The position numbers were made by a program, and so were the translations under genes. This document shows, piece after piece, positions 9,075 to 33,126 of a stretch of 33,168 nt of DNA. Below the pieces are notes generated by a model. It had not been told where the DNA came from, searched no databases, and worked only from the letters and a program-made list of their open reading frames with translations. The DNA is from Neisseriaceae bacterium (GTDB taxonomy: Bacteria > Pseudomonadota > Gammaproteobacteria > Burkholderiales > Neisseriaceae): contig JAGCOT010000097.1 in assembly GCA_017645365.1 (NCBI GenBank), positions 1 through 33,168 of the forward strand. The letters run 5' to 3'. Position 1 is the first letter of the stretch; the number at the start of each line of letters is the position of its first letter.

Positions 9075-9109
9075 CTGATGCAAGATAAGTTCAAAGTTAT
9101 AGCCCCGCC

Positions 9110-9297
9110 AAACAAGGTTTATCGTCCGATAAAATCTTTATTGACGAAGTCAATAAAGATTTTGACTTTGTCAAAATAAACCTTGTTTTAGCATCACTTC
9201 GCTCGCAGAAACTGCGGTTTGTTTGCTTCGCAAACCTTTTATTGACTTCGTCAATAAAGATTTTGACTTTGTCAAAATAAACCTTGTTTTGCGAGCG
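9110..9297 (-). repeat. Triloop-hairpin repeat, two units (copies A1 and A2)
   Basis: Two head-to-tail units read on the minus strand, each starting AAAACAAGGTTTATTTTGAC. Hairpins, in plus-strand coordinates: 9134-9160 (12-bp stem, loop GAA), 9161-9175 (TTTGAC/GTCAAA, loop TTT), 9221-9235 (GTTTGC/GCAAAC, loop TTC), 9241-9255 (ATTGAC/GTCAAT, loop TTC) and 9261-9277 (TTTTGAC/GTCAAAA, loop TTT). AAACAAGGTTTAT at 9110-9122 and ATAAACCTTGTTT at 9176-9188 form a 13-bp outer inverted repeat. It fills the gap between the convergent DUF2818 gene and lysA. Confidence 0.85.
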
Positions 9298-10805: not shown

Positions 10806-11057
10806 GAGTTGCTGTTTTGCTGGGATTTTATAGTTAAAGCCAAACCCATATTCTTTTAATATAAAGATCTGCGATCAATGCTATTAGGCTTTCGCAATAG
10901 GCTATTTTATTCAGTTTCTAAAATTCTCGATGCCGTTAATGTGATCTTTTTATCCGCAAAATGCGGTTGTAGTTAATTGATATAGTAATGAAATTCACTC
11001 ACATCAAGAGCGTTATCACTTCTAAACAATCTGAAACCTTTGCAAACCGACATCTGC
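10806..11057 (-). pseudogene. Decayed IS1016-type transposase
   Basis: Minus-strand translation in shifting frames gives RLFRSDNALDVSEFHYYIN, then HFADKK, then KDHINGIENF, then ILKEYGFGFNYKIPAKQQL, in the order expected for the catalytic and C-terminal parts of an IS1016/IS1595-family transposase. Several in-frame stops and at least one frameshift separate them. At 10806-10880 the DNA aligns with the intact C-terminal end at the right window edge (GAGTTGCTGTTTTG, ATAGTTAAA, ATTCTTT and AGAT.TGCG blocks in the same order). No inverted-repeat tip is visible on the lptM side. It is a non-functional relic, older than the two edge copies. Confidence 0.8.
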
Positions 11058-11084
11058 AACACATTTCTTCCTTGTGCATTCTTT

Positions 11085-11194
11085 AAAACAAGATTTATTT
11101 TAGTCGTGAAACTAATGTTGATTGATGAAGTAAATCAACAGATGATGAAGTCATCAAACCGCAGTTTTTGTAAGTGTAAGAGAAGCTAAAATTT
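11085..11194 (+). repeat. Triloop-hairpin repeat, degenerate copy B
   Basis: It starts AAAACAAGATTTATTTTAG and ends GAAGCTAAAATTT, matching the outer parts of the other copies (AAAACAAGGTTTATTT and GCGAAGCTAAAAC). Inside are GTTGATT...AATCAAC and GATGAT-GAA-GTCATC, both recognisable as GAA-loop hairpins with one or two mismatches next to the loop, then AAACCGCAGTTTTTG. It directly abuts the integrase relic. Confidence 0.7.
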
Positions 11195-11196
11195 CG

Positions 11197-11502
11197 AAAA
11201 GAGCGGGGATCGAAAACTTCTGTTGGCATGATTTACGGCACACATGGGCAAGTTGACTTATTCAGCGTGGTAGACCATTAGCGGCATTACAAAGAAACGA
11301 AACTTATTTTTACAAAGTAAAAATCTTTTGCAAATGCAGTGAGTAAAAGGATTGCGAAGCAATTAAGTTGAAGTTTCAACAAGCTAATAGGCGAAGTTAA
11401 ATGAGTGATTGGGAAACACCGAGTATGGTGCAACGCTACGCTCATTTAGCCCCTGAACATTTGCACAAGCATTCTGCATTGCTGAATAATTTGCTTGAAT
11501 AA
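11197..11502 (+). pseudogene. Tyrosine-recombinase (integrase) C-terminal relic, interrupted by a repeat
   Basis: Codons 11197-11292 read KRAGIENFCWHDLRHTWAS, stop, LIQRGRPLAALQ. Codons 11401-11502 read MSDWETPSMVQRYAHLAPEH and then LHKHSALLNNLLE with a stop. Together they are the C-terminal catalytic half of a phage-type integrase: the HDLRHTWAS box and the MVQRYAHL box with the nucleophilic tyrosine. It is dead: TGA replaces the expected tryptophan codon at 11254, and a hairpin repeat of about 100 bases (11293-11392) separates the boxes. It reads towards the 3' end of tRNA-Lys, the usual site for such integrases, so it probably marks a lost integrated element. Confidence 0.85.
11293..11392 (+). 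repeat. Triloop-hairpin repeat copy B', inside the integrase relic
   Basis: Three hairpins in the standard order: TTTTTAC-AAA-GTAAAAA (11307-11323), a decayed CTTTTGC...AGTAAAAG pair around AATGCAG, and ATTGC-GAA-GCAAT (11351-11363). GTTGAA-GT-TTCAAC (11367-11380) follows. The end that normally reads TCTGCGAGCGAAGCG is missing. Exact borders are inferred from where the integrase reading frame stops and resumes. Confidence 0.7.
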
Positions 11503-19163: not shown

Positions 19164-19366
19164 AAAACAAGGTTTATTTGATACGAAGTATCAACCTTTA
19201 ACAAATGCAGTTTGTTAAAGTGGATTGCGAAGCAAAAACCTGCGTTTCTGCGAGCGAAGCGAAGCTAAAACAAGGTTTATTTCACGAAGTGAAATCTTTT
19301 ATTCGCAAAGCGAATAAAAGGAGATGACGAAGCCAAAAACCTGCGTCTCTGCAAAGCTAAAATTTT
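19164..19366 (+). repeat. Triloop-hairpin repeat, two units (copies C1 and C2)
   Basis: Two tandem units each begin AAAACAAGGTTTATTT. C1 hairpins: TTGATAC-GAA-GTATCAA (19178-19194), CTTTAACAAA-TGCAG-TTTGTTAAAG (19196-19220), TTGC-GAA-GCAA (19225-19235), then CTGCGTTTCTGCGAGCGAAG. C2 hairpins: TTTCAC-GAA-GTGAAA (19280-19294), an 11-bp stem with AAA loop at 19296-19320, then a damaged GATGAC-GAA-GCCA, then CTGCGTCTCTGCAAAGC. The stems differ between units and from copies A and B, but stay paired. The remaining bases to 19429 show no gene or motif. Confidence 0.88.
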
Positions 19367-19429
19367 GCTTAACCTTTTGTTATGTCTTCGATTTAAAGTG
19401 CTACTACAATTTTGAGTGCATCACATCTG

Positions 19430-20308
19430 TTAGTTTTGCAAGGGAGTTCTTTCATGCTGCCCTATCCAATCACACACAAACTGCCAAGCCGTACGACCAC
19501 TACGATTACCACGCGATAAAGACCATTGCAATGCCGCTGCTGTAACTTCTTCATTCATCTCCAATTGGGCAGCCTGAATCCATTTTTCCACCGCAGCCAA
19601 ATAATCGTCCTGACTAAATGGATAAAAACTCAACCACAGCCCAAAACGATCAGATAAAGAAACTTTTTCTTCCACCGTTTCTTGCGGATGCACTTCGCCA
19701 CGACTGCCTGTATAACCAGAATTATCCGCCATATATTCGGGCATTAAATGACGGCGATTGGAAGTCGCATACACCAAAACATTTTCACAACGCATCGACA
19801 AACCACCGTCCAATGCAGTTTTTAAAGCTTTGTAACCATCATCACCATCATCAAAAGATAAATCATCACAAAAAATAATAAACTTTTCGCTTCTCTTCGC
19901 CAAAATTGGTAATAAATGCGATAAAGAAAGCAAATCGTTTTTATCCACCTCAATCAAACGCAACCCCTGCTCGCCAAATTCGTACAACAAAGCTTTGATT
20001 AAAGAAGATTTTCCTGTTCCTCTTGCACCAGTCAATAAGGCATTATTGGCAGGACGACCTTTTAAAAACTGGGCAGTATTGCGAACTAAAATCTGCGTTT
20101 GTTGATCAATCGCTGCTAAATGACTTAATGGAAAAGTATGCGGTTGAGGCAAGGCAGTTAAAATGCCTTTTTGTCCTACACGCTGCCAACGAAAAGCCCA
20201 AGCATCCCAATCAGGCTCTTTGGATTCAGGGGGAAGATACGCATCAAGACGCAAAAGAACACTGTGTGCCAACTGTAAAAAGGATTTAAACTGTTTAAAT
20301 TTTTTCAT
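19430..20308 (-). CDS. DUF815 family AAA-type ATPase
   Basis: A 292-residue protein with Walker A GARGTGKS at 94-101, Walker B FIIFCDDLSF at 143-152, and conserved VYATSNRRHLMPE and DRFGLWLSFYPFSQDDYL motifs. These identify DUF815, a stand-alone P-loop ATPase of proteobacteria whose cellular role is not established. The start is ATG 20308 (MKKFKQFKSF); the longer frame begins with an unsupported TTG. No strong ribosome site is visible. Confidence 0.88.
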   Translation of the reverse strand: MKKFKQFKSFLQLAHSVLLRLDAYLPPESKEPDWDAWAFRWQRVGQKGILTALPQPHTFPLSHLAAIDQQTQILVRNTAQFLKGRPANNALLTGARGTGKSSLIKALLYEFGEQGLRLIEVDKNDLLSLSHLLPILAKRSEKFIIFCDDLSFDDGDDGYKALKTALDGGLSMRCENVLVYATSNRRHLMPEYMADNSGYTGSRGEVHPQETVEEKVSLSDRFGLWLSFYPFSQDDYLAAVEKWIQAAQLEMNEEVTAAALQWSLSRGNRSGRTAWQFVCDWIGQHERTPLQN

Positions 20309-32923: not shown

Positions 32924-32938
32924 AACTTAATATATTTT

Positions 32939-33126
32939 GGGGCTGTATTAGATTAGCCCAAAAAATTGTTAAATTCCACACCATTTTCGCAATGTTTTGA
33001 GTTGCTGTTTTGGTGTCCCATAGTTAAATCTAGGGGCTGTATTAGATTAGCCCAAAAAATTGTTAAATTCCACACCATTTTCGCAAGGTTTTGAGTTGCT
33101 GTCTTGGTGTCCCATAGTTAAATCTA
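32939..33126. repeat. Tandem duplication of the 94-bp IS end
   Basis: Unit 1 is 32939-33032 and unit 2 is 33033-33126. They differ at two positions: T or G within CGCAATGTT/CGCAAGGTT, and T or C within GCTGTTTTGG/GCTGTCTTGG. Each unit holds one terminal inverted repeat and the last 30 or so transposase codons with the stop. Confidence 0.93.

Follow-up and report, generated by a model that had tools for sequence, protein, structure and literature searches.

At positions 19164–19358 of the window, that is, the whole stretch of 33,168 nucleotides analysed here (a contig of 33 kb from the draft genome, 1.78 Mb in size, of a Neisseriaceae bacterium), two hairpin-rich units of about 100 bp stand in tandem, both opening with AAAACAAGGTTTATTT. 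The hairpins hold up on inspection and are part of an extensive family of dispersed copies. A sequence-only reading of the same DNA had described units of this length with paired stems and several hairpins in a row, and the tandem pair bears this out, including the set of three hairpins; the third hairpin of unit 2 (TGAC-GAA-GCCA) carries one mismatch, so that calling the stems always paired is too strong, and a stem that encloses the hairpins, an AAAA target and a link to DNA uptake sequences (DUS) had been overlooked. Three other sites of the window carry units as well (9290–9092 on the minus strand, 11085–11185 and 11294–11396; Table 1).

Table 1. Coordinates of the repeat units and their parts in the window
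Feature	Position	Strand	Description and basis
Unit 1	19164–19266	+	AAAAC, closing stem, hairpins H1–H3 and tail hairpin; sequence; covariance-model match, E 9.3e-18
Unit 1, closing stem, 5' side	19165–19175	+	AAAC-AA-GGTTT; partner is 19236–19247
Unit 1, H1	19178–19194	+	TTGATAC-GAA-GTATCAA; sequence
Unit 1, H2	19196–19220	+	CTTTAACAAA-TGCAG-TTTGTTAAAG; sequence, DNA fold
Unit 1, H3	19225–19235	+	TTGC-GAA-GCAA; sequence
Unit 1, closing stem, 3' side	19236–19247	+	AAACC-TGC-GTTT; covariation, DNA fold
Unit 1, tail hairpin	19248–19266	+	CTGCGAGCGAAGCGAAGCT; with flanking GTTT/AAAAC, counterpart of the family-wide 19-nt module
Unit 2	19267–19358	+	Partial decay of the third hairpin and the tail; AAAA follows at 19359–19362
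Unit 2, H1	19279–19295	+	ATTTCAC-GAA-GTGAAAT; sequence
Unit 2, H2	19296–19320	+	CTTTTATTCGC-AAA-GCGAATAAAAG; sequence
Right end of a separate MITE	19359–19455	+	The array occupies its AAAA site; resembles array-less MITE copies, e.g. L040:478-617
Full unit	9190–9290	-	Best covariance-model match in the genome (E 4.6e-27); sequence, covariance-model search
Second, truncated unit	about 9092–9189 (also bounded 9189–9133)	-	H2 (9131–9163) has an inverted loop, read as TTC along the element strand
Diverged unit	11085–11185	+	Adjoins the left end of a MITE (11021–11084); covariance-model search
Diverged unit	11294–11396	+	Closing stem AACTT/AAGTT in place of GGTTT/AAACC; covariance-model search

Fold, covariation and loop classes

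The closing stem has the form AAAY-AA-GGTTT ... AAACC-NNN-RTTT, in which AAAY pairs with RTTT and GGTTT with AAACC, and it encloses the three hairpins. Unguided DNA folding of unit 1 (19165–19266) recovered this stem together with the three hairpins (z -2.9), and for the unit at 9190–9289 it returned the hairpins without the closing stem. In an alignment of 39 units (A1), 91.5% of the cells are paired and 19 of 32 pairs have changed on both sides; the covariation score is 0.287 against 0.129 in shuffles, was reached by none of 500 shuffles, and is about 0.05 or less in slid controls (≤0.047). The counts for helices 3 and 4 in this alignment are conservative, because MAFFT misaligns H1 hairpins of differing lengths. 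At the pair formed by columns 5 and 90, the 39 units hold C-G 26 times, T-A 11 times and other combinations twice, and Y and R match in 63 of 66 cases. Hairpins with a stem of at least 6 number 331 in 146 units (shuffle mean 15), and the window alone holds 19 triloop hairpins with a stem of at least 7 (shuffle mean 3.75, maximum 7), several of which are uptake-sequence dyads. The proposal that stem changes on one side are matched on the other is in the main upheld: stems are compensated across the 39 units, although one-sided changes are common as well.

Loops follow the pattern (G/A)NA or GNNA and are closed by C-G. Among 173 matches, the triloops of hairpins with a stem of at least 6 are C(GAA)G (241), AAA (32), GCA (27), ACA (5), GTA (3), GGA (3) and TTC (2), and 67 of 72 short-stem tetraloops are GNNA, divided into 32 GNRA and 35 GNYA (e.g., GTTA and GTCA). 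GAA and AAA triloops therefore dominate, as had been stated from the sequence alone, with the GNNA tetraloops missed at that stage. The loop classes d(cGNAg) and d(cGNNAg) are unusually stable as DNA, and RNA prefers GNRA tetraloops. We read the structure as putative single-stranded DNA hairpins, and not as RNA, because roughly one in two GNNA loops falls outside GNRA, single mismatches show no clear excess of G.T (8, against 4 A.C) and the arrays keep no consistent orientation to genes. As both strands have nearly equal folding energies, the choice of strand follows from loop type alone.

That the repeat is a structured RNA element selected on transcripts, as a terminator or through mRNA stability or 5'UTR control, is very improbable. 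RNA versions of the units do fold (z -2.1 to -3.7), three genomes have an array immediately upstream of metK, and 24 of 70 placed arrays, most arrays being intergenic, lie between convergent genes; against this, sense (20), antisense (13) and divergent (13) placements give no clear bias, there is no clear G.U excess beside the many GNNA loops outside GNRA, and Rfam offers no match near threshold (in the window it recognises only RNase P and tRNA, and the best sub-threshold matches fall far below the gathering score). The earlier suggestion of a structured RNA end is not favoured either by the distribution of reverse transcriptase, which was considered and rejected, being found in only 3 of 12 genomes.

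Copies, insertion sites and turnover of units

A covariance model built from the 39 units finds at least 113 copies in the draft genome that contains the window (E≤0.01, the model's E-values being rough), and a 16-mer taken from the unit start has 89 genome matches with up to two mismatches, against 12 for its reversed control; these copy statistics were computed on extracted stretches of the genome. Across 83 family genomes, most of them drafts that break at repeats, the model is strong in 7 of 7 genomes of the same genus (14 to at least 49 matches each) and also in a single genome from a neighbouring genus (23 matches), and the remaining genomes give only one or two weak matches apiece. Copies are therefore spread genome-wide and genus-wide, contrary to the outcome, copies confined to the window, that by the sequence-only reading would have told against a structured family. 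The relatives that carry the repeat are mostly ruminant-gut MAGs named 'Neisseriaceae bacterium RGIG...', and the plasmids, phages and viral contigs searched held no units, so that, as far as sampled, the repeat is not plasmid- or phage-borne.

Through the weak matches a simpler form came to light, in which GTTTCTGCGAAGCTAAAAC, the counterpart of the tail hairpin of the unit, is arrayed in tandem. With at most one mismatch, this 19-mer occurs in 38 of 83 Neisseriaceae genomes and 6 of 12 genera, in up to 118 copies that are often spaced by 22 or 30 bp (reversed control, 0), and several of its arrays start directly 3' of an uptake sequence (GCCGTCTGAAAACGAAGTTT...). The unit of about 100 bp appears to be a more complex form within a series that spans the family, because its tail hairpin corresponds to this minimal module, which itself forms arrays at uptake sequences. 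The exact sequence of the module had no match in the literature searched. Smaller relatives made of one large hairpin (AAAACGAAGTTTTGACAAAGTCAAAACGAGTTTCTGCG...) also occur in tandem next to uptake sequences (L043:79-330 and L016:319-390).

Uptake sequences in this genome read AGGC(A/T)GCCTGAAA, a type that corresponds to the kingDUS/simDUS dialects (PMC3630211). From 4 to 33 kb of the window they appear throughout as overlapping dyads of TTTCAGGC(A/T)GCCTGAAA; overlapping dyads have been reported for Simonsiella (PMC3630211). Nearly all arrays have AAAA at the left flank, and AAAA(Y) remains on both sides of the unit. When duplicates are removed by left flank, a procedure that may leave some orthologues in place, 98 arrays remain, and in 29 of them the start coincides exactly with the AAA(A) end of an uptake sequence, leniently defined. 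Among background AAAAY sites the figure is 198 in 7305 (2.7%), which gives a binomial p of 4e-22. Two orthologous sites (L182 and L196) hold an intact uptake sequence and no array, as would be expected if arrays insert where an uptake sequence already exists, array loss being also possible; at L164:3829-4014, compared with G062, the uptake sequence is broken and scar-like. Elements with GTTT tend to precede AAAC and those with ATTT to precede AAAT, weakly (Fisher p 0.019).

The comparison of orthologous empty sites, proposed with the sequence-only reading, yielded one truly clean case: genome G060 reads GCAAATAAAACACGATTG without a unit, and its orthologue in G059 (L164:5524-5611) holds one, the left flank being 99.7% identical. 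The empty form GCAAATAAAACACG corresponds to the filled form ...AAAAC-unit-AAAACACG, in the context GCAAATAAAAC-unit-AAAACACGATTG, so that a complete unit occupies a non-DUS AAAAC site with AAAAC as direct repeat. In the genome of the window, one unit interrupts a transposase gene (TGGGAAAAC...GCTAAAAAGGG), named IS30-type from its reading frame and with its empty form deduced from that frame alone; an intact second copy of this gene was searched for and not found. In one clear case of in-frame insertion within an ORF, an array is translated near the N-terminus of a Dyp-type peroxidase (L045:1263-2318) whose homologue in L168 has none. The AAAA flanks at the transposase and peroxidase sites, like the AAAAC at the clean site, are indistinguishable from element-borne sequence. 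As judged by sequence comparison, the clean empty site and the insertions inside both genes show that units move. Together with stem covariation and the dispersed, genus-wide family, they speak for the structured, transposon-like element that had been suggested.

The AAAAC direct repeat could also be the 4–5 bp AAAA(Y) duplication left by a DDE transposase moving a miniature transposon as double-stranded DNA, the hairpins being incidental or otherwise used, and a separate MITE with terminal inverted repeats does coexist with the arrays and hosts some of them. We regard this explanation as rather unlikely, for terminal inverted repeats are not evident in the unit (its ends, AAGG... and ...GCT or GTT, do not form such a pair), and a duplex transposon needs neither strand-specific loops nor interior stems that are compensated throughout. 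The MITE itself is about 140 bp long, with terminal inverted repeats GAAACYYCTGCAAAACTGGCAGATGTG (window 11021–11084 and 19359–19455; L040:478-617; L016:1933-2061), and copies of its right end are numerous in the genus, some hairpin arrays lying in the central AAAA of the MITE. It was rejected as the element itself, as it occurs without arrays and arrays occur without it.

Tandem arrays hold one to three units, and the number varies at orthologous sites (1, 1 and 3 upstream of metK; 1, 2 and 2 at L101, L157 and L165). At L157 and L165, two whole hairpins differ within nearly identical surroundings, and among 75 units the hairpin types form 35 combinations, with four-gamete sets complete for every pair of positions; part of the covariation thus reflects block exchange, since hairpin types recombine among units. 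The metK orthologues display a stepwise series of stems (GAC/GTC, GAC/GTA, TAC/GTA), and in unit pairs that differ at no more than 6 positions, stem changes are one-sided 24 times whereas a compensated pair occurs once, so that arm repair is not immediate. Loops inverted to TTC from GAA (window 9131–9163; L017/L051; L035) fit the footprint expected of template switching, a process that is reported both to create and repair stems and to reverse the orientation of loops (PMC8794818). It had been proposed that the arms are kept identical by hairpin-templated repair, and this gains partial support: the inverted loops agree with it, whereas the one-sided changes and the exchange of whole hairpins at one orthologous site indicate that any such repair would not be strict. 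Stepwise change, template switching and module exchange probably all contribute.

These processes raise the question of whether a dedicated recombinase is needed at all, as template switching, slippage and fold-back synthesis at hairpins, followed by spread through transformation beside uptake sequences, would account for the inverted loops, the changes in unit number, the replacement of hairpin blocks and the DUS bias of arrays. This is quite improbable, however: for a whole unit to arrive at an AAAAC site outside any DUS, within otherwise near-identical DNA, it has to be copied from elsewhere, and near-identical copies carry one-sided stem changes.

Candidate mechanism and known repeat families

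We consider it rather likely that the unit is a non-autonomous mobile repeat, active as one DNA strand, the strand that displays GAA, AAA or GNNA loops, and we file it as a candidate new family of single-strand hairpin mobile repeats that would act like a single-strand hairpin transposon. Sequence comparison and folding show that the strand folds into a closing stem around three C-G-closed mini-hairpins, plus the tail hairpin, that the unit inserts at AAAA, leaving AAAA(Y) on both sides, that whole hairpins can pass from one unit to another, and that arrays lie with a strong bias at the AAA(A) end of the DUS. In the proposed mechanism, a putative trans-acting enzyme would recognise folded single-stranded DNA, in replication or transformation intermediates, and cut between AAAA and Y, where the RTTT of the element would pair with AAAY. 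The fold would persist because only folded strands get moved, and a position beside a DUS would help the arrays to spread by natural transformation. The sequence of such a short mobile repeat drifts and its hairpin set is preserved, and it may be a selfish element travelling with natural transformation. A more ambitious version, which we think unlikely, is that it homes to the DUS as a selfish single-stranded element riding transformation, that DNA–DNA pairing between an RTTT guide and AAAY sets the target, and that the family, from the 19-nt hairpin to a four-way junction of about 100 nt, evolved in Neisseriaceae alongside the uptake-sequence dialects.

In the search for an enzyme, no Y1 transposase (PF01797) was found in the genome of the window, which is 99.99% complete. 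Y1 genes are present in three relatives (G059, G062 and G064), with no unit beside them and with other palindromes, GTAGGGTGGG-type and CAACGCC(GNNA)GGCGTTG, in their flanks. Three single-copy RAYT-type Y1 genes, one of them truncated, have hairpins of these types nearby (L192:1354-1890, L193:122-664 and the truncated L194:1462-1746). Y1/RAYT was rejected as the mobiliser, being patchy, adjoining other palindromes and not tracking repeat number across the family, and on the same grounds, together with the lack of a Y1 gene in the window's genome, membership of IS200/IS605 fails.

The likeness to IS200/IS605 elements, and to IS608 in particular, extends to hairpins in single-stranded DNA and to insertion just 3' of a short, fixed target, which is kept at the left flank. 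It may also include a segment by the foot of the hairpin that could pair with the site of cleavage or the target, the order target, complement and hairpin being repeated at the right end. The differences are a non-coding unit of about 100 bp without tnpA or tnpB, an AAAA target, three extra internal hairpins and no linked Y1 enzyme. For IS608, target choice by guide pairing and retargeting by guide change are established (PMC5934647). REP/REPIN palindromes, which are associated with RAYT (TnpA-REP) transposases, are likewise short, dispersed, structured and non-coding, with compensated stems and many intergenic copies, but REPs are 20–40 bp long and have a GTAG or CGTC tag (PMC3733652), whereas the unit has about 100 bp, three hairpins within a closing stem and the A1 consensus AAAAY/RTTT with neither tag, and the RAYT-like genes of the genus adjoin palindromes other than the unit. 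Several stem-loop repeats occur in Neisseriaceae, namely NEMIS/Correia, dRS3, Nem-4, which is built from DUS pairs, ATR and Rep2; none is described as a multi-hairpin unit at the 3' end of a DUS in the sections of the source drawn on here (PMC2267715).

Modular structured repeats are also represented by the Rickettsia palindromic elements (RPE) and the pneumococcal BOX elements, from which the unit differs in sequence, loops, DUS anchoring and its family-wide minimal module. RPEs are translated in frame within genes, as is the array inside the peroxidase. The R box of integron attC sites has an invariant GTT/AAC core, and this reading was ruled out, as 11 of 39 units have AAAT/ATTT.

It is rare for bacterial genomes to provide documented cases in which DNA hairpins, as opposed to RNA ones, keep their fold, have DNA-stable loops and act as units of selection. 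Should the DUS bias stem from targeted insertion, a mobile element would be exploiting the uptake signal of competent bacteria, and transformation as a vehicle for selfish DNA would become directly testable. The many orthologous copies make it possible to measure how compensated stems originate, be it stepwise, through template switching or through the exchange of modules. Apart from the units, the contig end carries two 94-bp direct repeats, 95% identical, at 32931–33118, of which 20 nt also match positions 120–139 in inverted orientation.
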